From Ignavibacteria bacterium (lineage in GTDB: Bacteria > Bacteroidota > Ignavibacteria > Kapaibacteriales > Kapaibacteriaceae): a stretch of DNA of 50,638 nt. Every line of letters starts with the position of its first letter. Within the stretch, counting starts at the first letter, position 1. This document shows, in pieces, positions 21,969-29,400 of the stretch. Below the pieces are notes generated by a model that was not told the origin of the DNA, ran no database searches, and saw only the letters and a list, made by a program, of their open reading frames with translations. The stretch spans positions 1 to 50,638 of the forward strand of contig CANHFG010000006.1 of assembly GCA_947459875.1 (NCBI GenBank), written 5' to 3'. The position numbers and the translations under genes were made by a program.

Positions 21969-24422
21969 CTATTCCACATAGTACAACCTCCGCTCGGATG
22001 TGCTTATCACCATCACCACACTGCCGGGGGGCAACGGCATACGATCGATCGAGTCGCAGTCCTGCGACGTGCACAGCACGCGACCACCGAGGTCGTACAC
22101 CGTGGCAGCGTCGAGCGTTGAAACGTGGGCACGGAAGGCCTGGCGTGACATTGCCAGTGGCTCGCGCCGTGGCTGTAGCACTGGCGCTTGGCCGTCGACG
22201 CTGGTAACGCCATCAATGCGGTAGAGTCCGTCCTGGGCCGCCACAAGCAGGTCGTTGCCCGCAATGTGGATGTCGATGGCACGCATCGACGCCGGCACGC
22301 GATAGTCGAAGTCCCACGTGCGGCCACCATCGCTGCTTATCACTACCGATCCCGGCATAACGCCTAGCACGTAATCACCGCCAAGATCGATAACCTTGCC
22401 CGTACAGGGTACCCACTCGCCCGAGTAAAATAGCGGGGCCGACGACGTCCACGTCGCTCCCCCATCGGTCGAGCGGATGTAACGCATGTTCGTCAACTGT
22501 GGCGTCCGACGATCACCATCGGAAGAATCTTCGCGCATGGCTGCGGTCAAGGCCAGCAGCGTTCCGTCACTGAGGCGATGCATGGGATAGACGTAGCTAC
22601 CGCATTCGCCTGGCAGGGCTATGCTGCGCACCTCTTGGCTGCCATCCACCACGGCAAGGCCACCGTGGCGGTAGGGCTGCGGAACGAAGTCCGAGTCGCT
22701 ACGCGTAGTACCGTAGAACGACAGCAGCAAGCGGCTGGCGCTGCCCAGCGGCGTAATCGACGAAGGATAACCCGGAAGTAAGCCCTTGGCTGTGCGCAGA
22801 GGGGCAAGTTCGTACCGCACGGTGTCTGCACCGGTGCGCACCCACAGGGCGTCGTGGTTGGCCACGCTCCACGTGCTAGGGTCGATGCGGGCGAAGGCCG
22901 TGGTGAAGCCGCGCCACACTGTGTCTTGCACATCGCCACGGCTCAGCAGGCGGCGTACCACGCTACCGCTGTGCGCTAATGTATCGGTGCCCCCTACCTG
23001 CCATGGCTGGGGGGTACGCACGCCATACCAGGGTAGGGTGGAGTTGGGATCATCGACAAACGTATTGACTATTGTACGCTCATCGAACAACAGCCCAGGA
23101 TATATGACGTATGTCGGTTCGGTGGGGTTGTCAAGCTCGCGACGCAGCACGCGGCCATAGTCATCCAACACCATCGGCAAACCTCGGTCATCCGTCCATG
23201 TGCAGAGCATGCGTTGCAGCTGCAGATTGCCTAGTGAGGCCAACAAAGCGCCCAATGCCAACGGATACGGATGCTTGGGCGACGATATCATGGAGTTGGA
23301 GTTGGCACGGCTTAACGAAACACCGTGCGCGCCAAACAGCGAAATCGCAAAGGGATGATAATCATGACGCAGGCGGCTGAAGTCAGAATGAAGAGACCAC
23401 GTTGTCCATCGTGGATACTGCGCACGACTCGTAAAGGCCACACGTATCGAATCCACATCGTAGGAAAACACATATACCCACTCGCGTTCGGAGCGAACTT
23501 CGTCAACGCGTATAGGACACTGAAATGTATGGTTTCCTGTGGGTGTTAGGATACACTGCCAGCCGGCAGAATCGGCATAGAACACACTATCGGCCCACAT
23601 GTTGCTTACGATATGTGGCCGTAACGTGCGGTGCTTGCCATTTACCAACAGCGTATCAATGCGCGTTAACGTCGTATCACCCAACAAGCCAACTGCAAGA
23701 TTCCACTGCCGGCTATTTCGGGTGGGTCGAACAATCGTGTAGATCGTTAATGGAGCACTGCGCGATGACATGCGCGTGGTTGCATTACTGTTCTGTTTGA
23801 ACGGTGTTATCAAAAGCCGTGGAGTCGAATCGTTTAACCAAACGTACTTTCTACGGTCTGTGAGCGACTCGAACGTCAAAGTACTGTCGCCGAGATCCAG
23901 TTCCGTATAGTACTGTAGGGCAACCGTACTAGGTACTGTCTCGAAGAACGATAAACCAAGATCTTGCGACAACCGGTGACCTGCTTCTCCCGGAAGTGGC
24001 GTAAAATTGTTCAAGAAACCAGCATCATGAGTAATCTCAGATGGGGTCTGTACGAAAACTGAACCCCGAGGATCCACTCGTACACATAAACCGATTGGAT
24101 CAGACCGCAGTCTGGCGACTACGCCCAAATCTGACGCGGCAGGAAAGAAATAGTCCATGCCCGATAGGCTGGGAGAAGTCTCCAACCATCTGGAAGTCAG
24201 GTCTTCTACATCAACGACGCAGAGACTGCGCTTCTGGATAAACATTACAATCGACTTTCCATCGCCAAGAGCTATGGGACCCTGTAAGGTCCCACCTTGT
24301 CCAAGCACTGTAGTTCTTGCCACCCTTACCAAAGTATCTGTGAACTGCGCCGCTACAGCCGATTCACCTGCCATCAACAATGTGACACATAACAACATCC
24401 GTTGGGTCAACTTGAAATTCAT
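21969..24422 (-). CDS. large secreted protein with BNR/Asp-box repeats and type IX secretion sorting domain
   Basis: The 817-aa product has a signal peptide (about 1-22, MNFKLTQRMLLCVTLLMAGESAVAA). Its repeats look like beta-propeller blades with Asp-box motifs STDGGATW (near 650) and SSDGGRTW (near 697). The C-terminal stretch (about 740-817) has VYDLGGRVL, a glycine turn LPPGSVVMVIS and a final RRLYYVE. This matches the Por/type IX sorting domain that sends proteins across the outer membrane in Bacteroidota. The open frame begins 18 codons earlier (24476), but the signal peptide fixes ATG at 24422. No enzymatic motif is recognised; surface binding or glycan contact is possible. It lies 150 bases downstream of the cysteine-rich gene. 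Confidence 0.8.
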   Translation of the reverse strand: MNFKLTQRMLLCVTLLMAGESAVAAQFTDTLVRVARTTVLGQGGTLQGPIALGDGKSIVMFIQKRSLCVVDVEDLTSRWLETSPSLSGMDYFFPAASDLGVVARLRSDPIGLCVRVDPRGSVFVQTPSEITHDAGFLNNFTPLPGEAGHRLSQDLGLSFFETVPSTVALQYYTELDLGDSTLTFESLTDRRKYVWLNDSTPRLLITPFKQNSNATTRMSSRSAPLTIYTIVRPTRNSRQWNLAVGLLGDTTLTRIDTLLVNGKHRTLRPHIVSNMWADSVFYADSAGWQCILTPTGNHTFQCPIRVDEVRSEREWVYVFSYDVDSIRVAFTSRAQYPRWTTWSLHSDFSRLRHDYHPFAISLFGAHGVSLSRANSNSMISSPKHPYPLALGALLASLGNLQLQRMLCTWTDDRGLPMVLDDYGRVLRRELDNPTEPTYVIYPGLLFDERTIVNTFVDDPNSTLPWYGVRTPQPWQVGGTDTLAHSGSVVRRLLSRGDVQDTVWRGFTTAFARIDPSTWSVANHDALWVRTGADTVRYELAPLRTAKGLLPGYPSSITPLGSASRLLLSFYGTTRSDSDFVPQPYRHGGLAVVDGSQEVRSIALPGECGSYVYPMHRLSDGTLLALTAAMREDSSDGDRRTPQLTNMRYIRSTDGGATWTSSAPLFYSGEWVPCTGKVIDLGGDYVLGVMPGSVVISSDGGRTWDFDYRVPASMRAIDIHIAGNDLLVAAQDGLYRIDGVTSVDGQAPVLQPRREPLAMSRQAFRAHVSTLDAATVYDLGGRVLCTSQDCDSIDRMPLPPGSVVMVISTSERRLYYVE

Positions 24423-24572
24423 GCGGCAGTTCTTTAAATGACGCAAAGCACACTGCTCAAAGACATCAGGCGGCATGCCTCATTGAGCAACGATGCAAGC
24501 GATCTGAGAGTTTATAGTTGAACAAGTAATTGACTGCATCCAACAGAATACTGATGAATGCGGACATAGCTG

Positions 24573-25223
24573 TTATGGACAACATTGAATTGCGGGACAG
24601 CCCTCATTCTCTGTGCAGTTCTGACCGTTACAGTTAGGTCCGTCGCACCGAATCGATATTGTGTTAGCACAATTGCCACCAGCCCGTTGCCACTCAAACG
24701 CCCAAATACAATATTTACAGTCTTCACATGGTACAATGCAGCCATTTGCACGCATCGTACACTTTGGGACCTTGATTTCCCAGCAGTATCGCCTAACAGG
24801 CGGTCCTGGAACAACGAATCCAAACTCATTGGGCACATTACAGGCTGTTAAGCGGATATGACAGAGCAGATAGCCCATGATCTGCGCGTCGGTGTACCCG
24901 ATGGGCTGCGCACCAACAAAGCAGAACCTCCTTAGTGTTGATTTTCGATCTTGAAGCAAAGTTGTGCTGCAGTCACCTAAGACCGGCGGACTATAGTTCA
25001 CCTCACAAAAGTCCACATTCGCCGTATAGTTCGTCCCATCGATGCAGAACGTCACCGTTCGCGTTACATTCGCCTGACAGTTGCATGAGTCGTTCGCCAG
25101 AGCGGACGAAGGAGCCAGGCCCAAAAGGGCAACGGTTAGTATGGCAACCACTATGGCTGCCGAAGAGCGTAGAAGTATGCAGCTGCGTATTGCCATACCC
25201 GAGCACGGCACTACGTGATCCAT
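24573..25223 (-). CDS. cysteine-rich exported protein of unknown function
   Basis: The 216-aa protein has a Sec signal ending near SSALA-ND (residue about 44). About 21 cysteines follow in some 172 mature residues, including CNC, a dense stretch CIVPCEDCKYC and a C-terminal CPAIQCC. The spacing is irregular and not a CXXCH haem pattern, so disulfides or metal binding are likely. GAGGGAG about 10 bases upstream supports ATG at 25223; a second ATG nine codons on is possible. The gene is followed at 150 bases by the type IX-secreted protein on the same strand. I know no family for it. It is intact, with an ordinary stop. Confidence 0.72.
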   Translation of the reverse strand: MDHVVPCSGMAIRSCILLRSSAAIVVAILTVALLGLAPSSALANDSCNCQANVTRTVTFCIDGTNYTANVDFCEVNYSPPVLGDCSTTLLQDRKSTLRRFCFVGAQPIGYTDAQIMGYLLCHIRLTACNVPNEFGFVVPGPPVRRYCWEIKVPKCTMRANGCIVPCEDCKYCIWAFEWQRAGGNCANTISIRCDGPNCNGQNCTENEGCPAIQCCP

Positions 25224-25660
25224 AATCGAACTCCCTCATTTTCTACAGAACAATTTTAACGTTATGATGTTTCTGTCTTGAGTCAACACCGCCGTATGCC
25301 GCGGATCTGAGGACGCCGATGTGAATATAGAAAGAAGACAGCAATCCTAGCCAAACGTTTCATTTGTGTCCACTTGTTGGGTAACGCCTGCGATTCTGCC
25401 GGAGAGGAGCTTCAACGGTAGTCCTCAACCCAGTGTGTCGACGTCCCAATCTGGCGACTTCTACCACTCCCGCTGTCAACCAATGTGGGGGAAGATCACA
25501 GATTTCAGGTTTTAGGTTTCAGTCCGCACAATAATCTAACGGTGGGTTCGTGCCAACCACCTGACAGTCTTTCTCATCACGACGGTCTGAGGGACGCGGC
25601 CCTGTGAAGACCACCAACCGGTTTCGAGCCGGTGGTAATGCCGCGAACGATGAGGCCCAC
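25224..25660. other. non-coding divergent gap with a short heptamer run
   Basis: This 437-base gap separates the cysteine-rich gene (minus) from the unknown gene (plus). It holds three heptamers of the GGTTTCA type at 25501-25521 and a small hairpin ACCGG-TTTCGAG-CCGGT just before the plus-strand gene. On the minus strand TTGACT lies about 50 bases before the cysteine-rich gene, a weak -35 candidate. I see no RNA gene or open reading frame of note in the rest. Confidence 0.5.
25501..25521 (+). repeat. three GGTTTCA-type heptamers
   Basis: Units GATTTCA, GGTTTTA and GGTTTCA lie in tandem, upstream of the unknown gene at 25661. The same heptamer family is found directly after that gene. Confidence 0.7.
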
Positions 25661-26359
25661 ATGAATATCAAGCAGTATCTGGAGCGCCAGTGCGCGCTCC
25701 ACGGCATTCGTCGTGGAGATATCCCACGACTGCTCGGCTACACGAACAGGTCAAAAGCACTGCGACGATACGACAGTTTCGTCGCGTGGAACTGGTTCGA
25801 TGAAGGCTTCGCCCGGCGAATCAGGGCATGCCCCGAACTTGCGGGCGATGACTTTGATCTGATACGAGCCCAGCTTGCACACAAGGAACGGGCCGACCGC
25901 AAAGAGGTGTTCCGCACTGAGGCGTTACGCCGCCGCTACAGCTTCGTTCCTCACATCTGGTTCGAACATGAGAATCAAGTGCCCAAGCCCTTATTCGTTG
26001 TCGCCCAGCTAGGCGAAGAACGATTCCGGCGTCTTGAACTCCCCCCAGGATTCACCAGCGATCACCCTGCGGCACTGGTCCTATTCGAGATTCCCACGCT
26101 TCTCATGAGACTTCTGACCGATCAACCAGATTGCGTTCAGTTGAAGGGGCCATTCGGCAAGGCCGTTTCAGCCATCTACCGCGATACGTATGACCACGGC
26201 TACGTCTTTGACCTGACAACACTGGAATGCATCGGAGAATGCCACGAAGCGCCTCGGGTCTTCATGCTCCTGCCTGCCCCTACACCAAGGAAACACAAAA
26301 CCATTTCCACGGCACAGATCGTTCGCCGCGAACGAAGAGCACGCAGGAAGAGGACCTAG
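25661..26359 (+). CDS. unrecognised protein with HTH-like N-terminus, bracketed by heptamer repeats
   Basis: A 232-aa protein from ATG at 25661, with GATGAGG upstream; an in-frame GTG at 25604 would add 19 residues. The first 40 residues (QCALHGIRRGDIPRLLGYTN, then RSKALRRYDSF) look like a lambda-repressor-type helix-turn-helix with a following basic helix. The middle has RRYSFVPHIWFEHE and PKPLFVVAQLGEERFRRL, a pattern I associate with hypothetical proteins of other bacteria, with no known function. The tail is strongly basic (RRERRARRKRT). It lies alone on the plus strand, with GGTTTCA heptamers on both sides. A DNA-binding role is a guess from the N-terminus and tail. Confidence 0.6.
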   Translation: MNIKQYLERQCALHGIRRGDIPRLLGYTNRSKALRRYDSFVAWNWFDEGFARRIRACPELAGDDFDLIRAQLAHKERADRKEVFRTEALRRRYSFVPHIWFEHENQVPKPLFVVAQLGEERFRRLELPPGFTSDHPAALVLFEIPTLLMRLLTDQPDCVQLKGPFGKAVSAIYRDTYDHGYVFDLTTLECIGECHEAPRVFMLLPAPTPRKHKTISTAQIVRRERRARRKRT

Positions 26360-26874: not shown

Positions 26875-29400
26875 TTAGAGGTTTGTGATCAGTGTTGGGA
26901 AGTTCGAAAGTACAGAATCAAGCCGCGAGATATCTCGGCCCCCTGCCGTGGCCATGTGAGGTTTTCCACCTCCACCGCCGCCAAGTTGCTTTGCCGCCGC
27001 GCCAACGAGCTTACCCGCAGAGAGAGTCTTGGTTAGATCATCGGTCACAACGCACACCAGCTGCACTTTGTCATCAATGACCGAGGCCAGCAGGCCTACA
27101 CCGGATGACTTCAGTGCCGAGCGCAGCTCGTCGCCCAAGGTCTTGAGCTGTTCAGCATCGGCTACATCAATCCGAGCCGTCGCAACGCGCACACCGTCGA
27201 TGTTTACGGCAGCATCGACGATTGAGGGGATCAGCCCCTTGAGCTCGTCAGACTTGAGAGCCGTGAGCTCCTTTTCGAGTTGCTTGATGCGCTCAGCCTG
27301 ACGAGCCATGTCATCACGCAGCCTGGTACGTTGCGCGTCGAGATCCTTCAGCCAGCTTGGAATGCTGCGGCCGGCAATGGCCTCGATTCGACGCACACCG
27401 CTGGCAACGCTCGACTCGCTGAGGATCTTGAACAGTCCGATCTCGCTGGAGTTGCGTACGTGCGTGCCACCGCAGAACTCCACAGAAAACTTCTCATCAA
27501 TAAAGACCACCCTCACGCTGTCGCCGTACTTGTCTCCGAAGAACATTTTGACGTTCGGGACGGTGCGCGCCTTCTCGATCGACATCTCTTCGATGTGTAC
27601 CGGAATGGCCTCGAAGATCTTCTCATTGACCATCTGCTCGATGGCCTCGATGTCTTCTTCCCGAACACGCTCGAAATGCGTAAAGTCAAAGCGCAGCCGC
27701 TCGGGCTCGACCAGCGATCCCGACTGCTGAACGTGCGTTCCGAGGACACGACGCAGCGCCTCGTGCAGAATGTGCGTGACGGAGTGCTCACGCTCGATGT
27801 CGCGCCGGCGCGGCACGTCAAGACGCGCAAGAGCAACATCGCCAACGTTGGCGTCAACGTCCGCATCGCAGATGTGGACGATGGCATCGCCAATCTTGCG
27901 GACATCGTCGATGCGGTAGGTTGAGCCCCCTACCATAAGCGTTCCGGTATCCGATACCTGGCCGCCCATCTCGACGTAAAATGGTGTTTCAGCTAGCACA
28001 ATGGTATTCCTTGAAACATGGAGAATGCTGGATGCACTCTCTATGTGCGAATACCCGGTGAAACGTGACACGGCATCAATGGTTTCGGTGACGGCTTCCT
28101 GCGCATGAGACTTGCGGGCAGCGCGCGAGCGGGCACGCTGCTCCTCGAGCAGACGGTCATATTCGGCAACATCTACCTGCAAGCCTCGCTCCCGAGCGAT
28201 CAGCTGCGTCAGGTCGAGCGGAAAGCCAAACGTATCATAAAGCTCGAAGGCATCCGACCCAGACACAGTATCGCCCACCATCGAAAGCGTATCAAAGCGC
28301 TGCAGACCACGGTCAAGCGTGGCAAGGAACGACTCTTCCTCGGCACGCACAACACGCTCGATGAGGTCCCGACGCTCGACGATCTCTGGAAACACATCTC
28401 CCATGGTATCGCAGAGGATCGCGACGTGCTTCCAAAGAACGGGCTCGGTTAGCCCAAGGTTTCGGGCATAGCGTGCGGCCCGACGAAGGATGCGACGCAG
28501 CACATAGCCTCTTCCCTCATTACCTGGCATTGCTCCATCGGCTATGGCAAACGAAAGCGTGCGGATGTGATCAGCGATCACGCGCATAGCCACGCCGTCG
28601 GGGTGGTCCAGCTCCGGGCGATACTCCCGACCGCAGAGTGATTCGGTATAGCTCAGCAGGGGGCGAAACACATCGGTGTCGTAGTTGGAATTCTTCCCCT
28701 GCATGACGGCGCACAGGCGCTCAAAGCCCATGCCCGTGTCGACGTGTTTCGACGGAAGCTCTTCGAGCGAACCGTCGGCCTTGCGGTTGTACTGAATGAA
28801 GACGTTGTTCCAGATCTCGATCACCTCCGGTACGCCGGCGTTCACAAGCGGTCCGCCGCTCAGGTCAGGCGTCCGATCGAAGTGGATCTCCGTGCACGGA
28901 CCACAGGGCCCCGTTTCGCCCATCTCCCAGAAGTTGTCCTTCTCGTCAAATCTGTGAATCTGCGTTTCCGGCAGATACTTCTTCCAGATCTCAAAGGATT
29001 CATCATCGGTGCGGTACACGGTCGCATGTAGTCGCTCAGGAGCAAGGCCGTATACCCCCGTCAGCAGCTCCCACGACCAAGCGATAGCTTCGCTTTTGAA
29101 GTAGTCCCCGAAGCTCCAGTTGCCCAGCATCTCGAAGAACGTATGATGGTAGGTGTCGTAGCCAACCTCTTCCAGATCGTTGTGCTTGCCGGAAACGCGG
29201 ATACACTTCTGCGTGTCAGCCGCACGGGTGTAGTCACGTTTGCCGGTGCCCAGAAACACATCCTTGAACTGGTTCATGCCGGCATTGGTGAATAGCAGCG
29301 TCGGGTCGCCGTGCGGAACCACCGGCGCCGAAGGCACGATACGGTGTGAACGGTCGCGGAAAAAGTCGAGAAAGGTCTGCCGGATCTGTCGTGATGTCAT
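26875..29400 (-). CDS. alaS: alanine-tRNA ligase
   Basis: AlaS charges tRNA-Ala and edits mischarged Ser/Gly. The 841-aa protein has the aminoacylation domain with TNAGMNQFKDVFLG and DYTRAADTQKCIRVSGKHND near the start, the tRNA-recognition helices, and the editing domain with HSVTHILHEALRRVLG (HxxxH) and the zinc site FCGGTHVRNSSEIG (CxxxH). The C-terminal C-Ala domain ends with a glycine-rich GGGGGGKPHMATAGG. It is slightly shorter than E. coli AlaS. It heads a two-gene operon with the DUF3127 protein. No -7 box is clear upstream, where a repeat region begins. Confidence 0.96.
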   Translation of the reverse strand: MTSRQIRQTFLDFFRDRSHRIVPSAPVVPHGDPTLLFTNAGMNQFKDVFLGTGKRDYTRAADTQKCIRVSGKHNDLEEVGYDTYHHTFFEMLGNWSFGDYFKSEAIAWSWELLTGVYGLAPERLHATVYRTDDESFEIWKKYLPETQIHRFDEKDNFWEMGETGPCGPCTEIHFDRTPDLSGGPLVNAGVPEVIEIWNNVFIQYNRKADGSLEELPSKHVDTGMGFERLCAVMQGKNSNYDTDVFRPLLSYTESLCGREYRPELDHPDGVAMRVIADHIRTLSFAIADGAMPGNEGRGYVLRRILRRAARYARNLGLTEPVLWKHVAILCDTMGDVFPEIVERRDLIERVVRAEEESFLATLDRGLQRFDTLSMVGDTVSGSDAFELYDTFGFPLDLTQLIARERGLQVDVAEYDRLLEEQRARSRAARKSHAQEAVTETIDAVSRFTGYSHIESASSILHVSRNTIVLAETPFYVEMGGQVSDTGTLMVGGSTYRIDDVRKIGDAIVHICDADVDANVGDVALARLDVPRRRDIEREHSVTHILHEALRRVLGTHVQQSGSLVEPERLRFDFTHFERVREEDIEAIEQMVNEKIFEAIPVHIEEMSIEKARTVPNVKMFFGDKYGDSVRVVFIDEKFSVEFCGGTHVRNSSEIGLFKILSESSVASGVRRIEAIAGRSIPSWLKDLDAQRTRLRDDMARQAERIKQLEKELTALKSDELKGLIPSIVDAAVNIDGVRVATARIDVADAEQLKTLGDELRSALKSSGVGLLASVIDDKVQLVCVVTDDLTKTLSAGKLVGAAAKQLGGGGGGKPHMATAGGRDISRLDSVLSNFPTLITNL

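Follow-up and report, generated by a model that had tools for sequence, protein, structure and literature searches.

Ignavibacteria-type genomes contain a gene for a small exported protein crowded with cysteines, and at the locus considered here it is followed on the same strand by the gene for a much larger propeller-like protein. What does such a protein do, and does it act together with the product of the neighboring gene? Both genes lie on the minus strand of the window, the term used here for the whole stretch of 50,638 nucleotides that was analyzed. A first-pass annotation had described an exported protein with 21 cysteines and of no known family, followed by a type IX-secreted (T9SS) propeller-like protein, and had offered either a surface module formed by the pair, for instance a disulfide-rich adhesin with its partner, or a metal-binding product. 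The features of the locus are:

24573..25223, minus strand: cysteine-rich exported protein, 216 aa (from the sequence and family alignments A1 and A3)
25095..25223, minus strand: its predicted signal peptide, residues 1-43, with an ALA end before NDSC (by eye and from the alignment)
24576..25094, minus strand: its mature cysteine-rich domain, 173 aa with 21 Cys, predicted with confidence as beta-rich
24783..24785, minus strand: codon of Cys147 (mature Cys104) in the YCW motif, a candidate unpaired cysteine
24477..24572, no strand: intergenic gap of 96 bases between the cysteine-rich and propeller genes
21969..24476, minus strand: partner gene, for an 835-aa Asp-box beta-propeller protein
21969..22184, minus strand: the partner's C-terminal T9SS type A sorting-like domain, about residues 765-835 (from alignment with members matching TIGR04183 or PF18962)

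The cysteine-rich protein and its relatives

The cysteine-rich ORF is confirmed as a real gene of the minus strand. A GAGGGAG Shine-Dalgarno-like stretch lies 7 bases upstream of its ATG, and it is not a chance ORF, because the same neighbor is kept by 44 further genes outside one genome, G017, to which we return below. Its product holds 23 cysteines, 21 of them among the 173 residues past the predicted signal peptide; against the 1.4% cysteine found in 35 selected window ORFs of at least 200 aa (this ORF included), the chance of at least 21 cysteines in 173 residues is p = 1.4e-13. The first-pass annotation was accurate on this point and on the two strings that it singled out, CIVPCEDCKYC and CPAIQCC, both of which are found in the protein. 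The signal sequences of this protein and of the propeller were read by eye, as were the hydrophobic N-terminus and ALA/AQ sites that recur across A1, a profile of 28 relatives.

The protein belongs to a family that is unnamed. Neither Pfam nor NCBIfam matched the window protein, and none of the 28 relatives matched Pfam at E up to 0.1, in agreement with the earlier description. The family and its pairing with a propeller were likewise not found in the open literature searched on T9SS, which is no proof of absence in print. A scan of genome contigs with the window protein as single query found nothing; with the A1 profile, 15 of 23 genomes from the window's GTDB family proved to contain it, often in many copies: G017 has 13 matches, G011 has 11 (fragments included) and the genome of the window has 8, of which two are weak. 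At the level of the order it was found in 16 of 123 genomes, the sole one beyond the GTDB family being G057, a short match with stops that is doubtful. The class sample gave 15 of 391 genomes (14 in the GTDB family plus G029) and the phylum sample 8 of 395, every one within the GTDB family; the three samples overlap, and at most 8 candidates per genome were scored for class and phylum. In the genomes sampled, the family is thus nearly confined to one GTDB family of Ignavibacteria-type metagenome-assembled genomes (MAGs), among them Ignavibacteria bacterium bin.189, uncultured Ignavibacteria bacterium SRR6670123_bin.14 and Bacteroidetes bacterium UBA10438. A mobile or viral origin was considered and set aside, with no relative in phages, in plasmids, or in viral contigs searched with two peptide patterns only; PADLOC gave no match, and PHROGs gave weak matches only (E 0.092 and 0.006).

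AlphaFold2, given the 48 aligned mature sequences of A3, predicted a compact beta-rich domain with one 15-residue helix at a mean pLDDT of 90.4 and a pTM of 0.87. Foldseek returned nothing at E < 0.001 from either the PDB (best 0.091, TM about 0.2) or the viral models of BFVD (best 0.057), and the best VIA-align match reached a Z of 5.1 over 92 residues at 4.9 A. Histidine racemase CntK, Atg7 and fluorescent proteins were rejected as fold relatives because their matches are too weak. The structure prediction called for by the first-pass annotation has given a confident fold with no significant PDB or viral match, and the model, compared with these two sets, is possibly that of a new fold.

In each of the 48 sequences, three pairs of cysteines (mature numbering) are either both present or both absent: Cys85 and Cys142 (37 with both, 11 with neither), Cys123 and Cys160 (46 and 2, a case that depends on two losing sequences) and Cys58 and Cys119 (47 and 1, one losing sequence). 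This joint retention and loss suggests that the three pairs form disulfides. A further proposed pair, Cys78 and Cys171, is not clean, with 16 sequences holding both, 4 neither and 28 only one.

Disulfides raise the question of how they would be made. DsbB and VKOR were each found in none of the 23 genomes of the GTDB family, by a search that found them in 6 and 3 of 14 control genomes, respectively; Thioredoxin_4 was found in 1 of the 23 and in 9 of the 14. The absence of DsbB and VKOR counts against ordinary periplasmic disulfide formation and, with the high cysteine content, speaks for a metal-binding protein serving in storage, in scavenging or as a cluster carrier. Such a product is nevertheless highly improbable: the joint retention and loss of three cysteine pairs argues against it, as does the 173-residue model, which is compact and beta-rich, unlike the short chain of metallothionein.

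Cysteine counts in family members run from 18 to 27. They are odd in all 23 members of subfamily I (19, 21 or 23), 26 in 10 of the 12 members of subfamily II and 27 in the other two, and even in all 13 members of the G017 clade. All 35 aligned members from genomes other than G017 have Cys104, which lies in the YCW motif, and none of the 13 G017 members does; because the G017 clade is a single event on the tree, this contrast in Cys104 and parity is one comparison and not thirteen. The simplest reading of these gains and losses is that Cys104 would be unpaired in subfamily I, matched by an extra cysteine in subfamily II, and lost in G017. Cysteine-dense exported proteins are common in the 23 genomes, despite the fact that neither DsbB nor VKOR was found there.

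The partner propeller and conservation of the pair

The view of the neighbor as a T9SS-secreted propeller-like protein holds with one qualification. An Asp-box propeller does lie on the same strand, 96 bases away, with an Asp-box match below the curated cut-off, and a sorting domain is present at the level of the propeller family; the window propeller by itself has no such match and none in NCBIfam. In A2, the alignment of 24 propellers, TIGR04183 is matched by 14 members at E up to 0.1 (best 8.5e-7), and PF18962 by 11 at E up to 0.01 (best 4.1e-9). From this homology within the family, the window propeller would also end in a T9SS sorting domain. SprA, the T9SS translocon, is found in 22 of the 23 genomes, including the window's own. 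No C-terminal sorting domain (TIGR04183, PF18962) was found in the cysteine-rich protein of the window, or by Pfam in any of 28 members of its family.

Within a known class of propellers, this one forms a new branch. Its best sequence matches are GH74 chains (E 3.9e-20), and sortilin chains are also matched by the partner profile (best E 3.1e-7), with PF15902 matched by 15 of the 24 A2 members at E up to 0.01. Its structural model is weak (mean pLDDT 63), being better over about residues 480-755, and the best Foldseek match obtained with this model is again GH74 (5fkr, E 6.6e-12, TM about 0.25). WD40-type and RACK1 folds also came up and were discounted as common-propeller matches. In A2, Gly, Ser, Trp, Gln and Met make up the invariant columns, and the only Asp or Glu in invariant or near-invariant columns are D611 and D671, which lie within Asp-boxes; no conserved catalytic acid was seen in the A2 columns, of which the N-terminal half is poorly aligned (14-23% identity). 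The idea that a fixed cysteine of the propeller forms a mixed disulfide with the cysteine-rich protein was rejected as a general rule, since no propeller cysteine column is common to more than 8 of the 24 members and subfamily II, with its mostly even count, is still paired with a propeller.

Conservation of the neighbor had been named as a check on the annotation. Forty-five cysteine-rich genes from genomes other than G017 pass the profile. In 44 of these cases a propeller-profile match follows 3' on the same strand, the paired frames overlapping or lying at most 259 bases apart. The 45th case runs into its contig end, and the propeller ORF there is 52% identical to another propeller. The pair is therefore kept in 45 of 45 genes outside G017, but in 0 of 13 in G017, so that the proposed surface module stands as a conserved gene module, with the 13 G017 genes that have no adjoining propeller against it. 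The count omits those 13 genes, G022 C191 (whose contig also bears a propeller match), the contig-end fragment G011 C27, and G000 C93 (L103), which has an RHS-like 3' neighbor rather than a propeller. It includes remnants or genes cut by contig ends (the second copy of L042, L047, L049), broken genes at L044 and L095 taken as one count each, and short or weak propeller matches at L047 and L102 (82 and 34 bits). In L033 a small sorting-domain gene stands between the two partners. A scan listed no minus-strand terminator-like site inside the 96-base gap at 24477..24572.

The distances of paired proteins correlate (r = 0.86, Mantel p = 0.0005) across 36 intact pairs, short, low-scoring and truncated ones having been left out, and there is no sign of partner swapping in this correlation. 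Such co-divergence is equally expected from plain co-inheritance of neighbors. Propellers also occur without the cysteine-rich gene: they are found in 22 of the 23 genomes, and of 20 propeller places with no known partner, several have no upstream cysteine-rich gene (L119, L120, L121, L137), while others are cut by contig ends.

One explanation of the pair makes the cysteine-rich protein the propeller's own periplasmic folding factor, which would bind the nascent propeller after Sec export and stay behind when the propeller leaves through T9SS. A gene directly upstream of the propeller, a product with no detected sorting domain, and partners that diverge together all fit this explanation. We consider it unlikely, because solitary propellers of the same family exist, ten tandem copies with no propeller in G017 make little sense for a dedicated chaperone, and one distant copy of the domain lies in the same chain as a T9SS domain and would go outside.

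Small sorting-domain-like proteins of about 116-118 aa lie directly 3' of some propellers (L118:267-623, L039:7576-7922, L123:373-723) and are a possible third component. In the window, the divergent upstream neighbor at 25604-26359 (plus strand) encodes 251 aa with no family match above the curated cut-off. Module genes lie on differing sides of alaS between genomes (window 26875-29400, L040, L130), the alaS-adjacent cases, with genes recognized by eye, being the window, G003 and a propeller fragment in G007; the alaS region is possibly an insertion hot spot.

Several paralogous propellers diverge in their N-terminal part and are homogenized in their C-terminal part. Same-genome propellers (G014 a-c, and C1/C37 and C1/C30 of G011) are mostly 32-66% identical over their first six tenths, with up to 87% in one tenth for G014 b/c, and their fourfold-degenerate sites agree there at mostly 14-50%, mostly near saturation. 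Over the last three tenths the same propellers are 81-100% identical, with 50-98% agreement at fourfold sites. A G000 pair shows only a weak gradient (82 and 70% in the last two tenths), as does G014 d/e, whose members are fairly alike along their whole length, and the orthologs of G010 and G003 follow the opposite trend and differ most at the C-terminal end. In the cysteine-rich proteins of G014 a-c the last fifth is 41-66% identical and the remaining fifths 62-100%, and in the G011 and G000 pairs the first fifth is the most variable. In G014 and G011 these patterns fit old variable heads on a base homogenized recently by gene conversion or recombination. The combination of variable head, constant base and multiple copies per genome is reminiscent of recognition systems that experience diversifying pressure.

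Copies away from the propeller

The G017 genes show the cysteine-rich family in another setting. On contig C24 (L045:5575-14166), ten tandem cysteine-rich genes are followed by a small T9SS sorting-domain protein (L045:4977-5723) that matches TIGR04183 (E 6e-6) and PF18962 (E 3.2e-6), above both curated cut-offs.

More distant copies of the domain are found within or beside proteins of other kinds. In G029, a member of another family of the order, two stretches of an 809-aa ORF match the profile (24.7 and 18.2 bits) and are followed by a Peptidase_S74 domain (E 3.8e-12) and a T9SS domain (TIGR04183, E 2.7e-6). This protein failed the default hmmsearch filters and was found with filters off. 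Its score of 30.6 bits compares with 16.9 for the best shuffle, and is not a cysteine effect, because it was reached by 0 of 2000 full and 0 of 2000 cysteine-fixed shuffles. In G089, a BLAST-level relative of the G029 protein (E 4.6e-6) has S74 and YadA-head repeats; against A3, the G089 and G107 relatives score only 6.7 bits each.

In G019 C106 (L149:976-10214) the order is a sorting-domain protein, a divergent cysteine-rich protein, and an RHS-type protein of 2558 aa (RHS_repeat E 2.6e-13) with a HELYGH motif near its C-terminus. The order is similar in G000 C93 (L103:5033-7528), although there a contig end truncates the third ORF, for which Pfam gave no match, and both sorting-domain matches are below the Pfam cut-off. 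A profile of four distant domains aligned with A3 over 78 columns (probability 93, E 3.4e-7). A profile comparison with A5 was not counted, because A5 includes the window protein and the result would be circular. The three-gene order suggests that the cysteine-rich domain is also used with polymorphic-toxin-like proteins. A further locus, G107 C4 (L148:1-4962), encodes a 656-aa cysteine-containing protein followed by an ORF with SpvB and TcdB-middle domains.

Copies of this kind would suit an independent secreted product, for instance a toxin-like or matrix protein, that shares only an operon with the propeller, the latter possibly being its receptor or carrier. Both the G017 copies without a propeller and the distant copies adjoining RHS-type genes point in that direction. 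We think it improbable, given the unbroken pairing outside G017 (45 of 45) and the co-divergence of the partners; furthermore, no constant immunity-like third gene was noticed in an unsystematic look.

The same copies could instead be read as uses of a general T9SS adaptor with a new fold. The domain would act as a disulfide-locked plug, either binding passengers that lack a sorting signal or being carried itself, and whole complexes would cross the outer membrane by means of one member's sorting domain. Its reuse would then extend from the propellers of the main family to the mini sorting-domain protein of the G017 array, to a position between sorting-domain and RHS-type proteins (G019 C106, probably G000 C93), and to fusion with S74-type fibers (G029, more doubtfully G089), and in subfamily I Cys104 would be kept free for a mixed disulfide. 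We regard this broader role as doubtful.

A proposed two-chain module and known systems

The reading that we prefer, with a probability of about 45%, is that the two genes encode one T9SS-displayed, diversified two-chain recognition module, of which the secretion, the contact between chains and the ligand are all inferred. Both proteins would be exported by Sec, and the cysteine-rich protein would fold, in the periplasm or outside, into a disulfide-locked domain. It would bind the propeller, which would carry it and hold it at the cell surface; such carriage is proposed because the cysteine-rich protein itself lacks a sorting domain. A ligand, for example a glycan, matrix or a neighboring cell, would be bound by a face made up of the propeller's variable N-terminal part and the variable ends of the cysteine-rich protein, and the propeller's constant C-terminal third would serve as base and anchor.

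With no detected sorting domain, the cysteine-rich protein is either periplasmic or leaves with a partner, and leaving is favored by the fact that the domain recurs next to, or within, sorting-domain proteins that differ widely in kind. T9SS is described in PMC9251779 as moving folded proteins. In favor of the module are the T9SS sorting domains of the propeller family, the steady linkage and joint divergence of the partners, the presence of SprA in 22 of 23 genomes, the sorting-domain protein that closes the G017 array, the G029 fusion, the three cysteine pairs retained or lost jointly, and the multiplication and diversification of the copies. Counting against the module are the solitary propellers, the 13 G017 copies without a propeller, the lack of a propeller cysteine column common to more than 8 of 24 members, the absence of DsbB and VKOR, the few sequences behind two of the cysteine pairs, the head-to-base gradient that is weak or missing in some pairs, and the weak propeller model. 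If the module is real, the locus brings to light a protein family that is unnamed and whose fold may be new, implies that T9SS surface proteins can be two-chain modules in an Ignavibacteria-type lineage, and offers a testable case of co-export for a protein lacking a T9SS signal. In these little-studied environmental bacteria, the two proteins may constitute a type of surface-recognition device not described before.

Several known systems resemble parts of this arrangement. GH74 xyloglucanases are the best match of the propeller by sequence and by Foldseek, but A2 has no invariant acid, and the propeller here has a T9SS domain and a cysteine-rich neighbor. PorZ, a T9SS surface component, likewise combines propellers with a T9SS-type C-terminal domain (Foldseek E 4e-11 to 5m11), and one A2 member matches the PorZ model. 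In contrast to PorZ, which is a single conserved machine part, the partner family here is multi-copy and variable. TANFOR polymorphic toxins have Sec signals and genes near those of T9SS-domain proteins, and are hypothesized in PMC7073777 to be T9SS substrates; their domains differ from those described here, and the word cysteine is absent from the main text of that paper.

A further parallel is Vps10p/sortilin, in which an Asp-box propeller is closely tied to a disulfide-rich partner. According to PMC5700061, the two 10CC domains of sortilin are stabilized by disulfides and themselves stabilize the propeller. Here, the cysteine-rich part is instead encoded by a separate upstream gene, has 18-27 cysteines and no significant fold match; the propeller is followed in its chain by a sorting domain and not by two 10CC domains, and its best matches are GH74 chains rather than the ten-bladed sortilin. 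Sortilin serves as a working analogy, and not as a claim of kinship.
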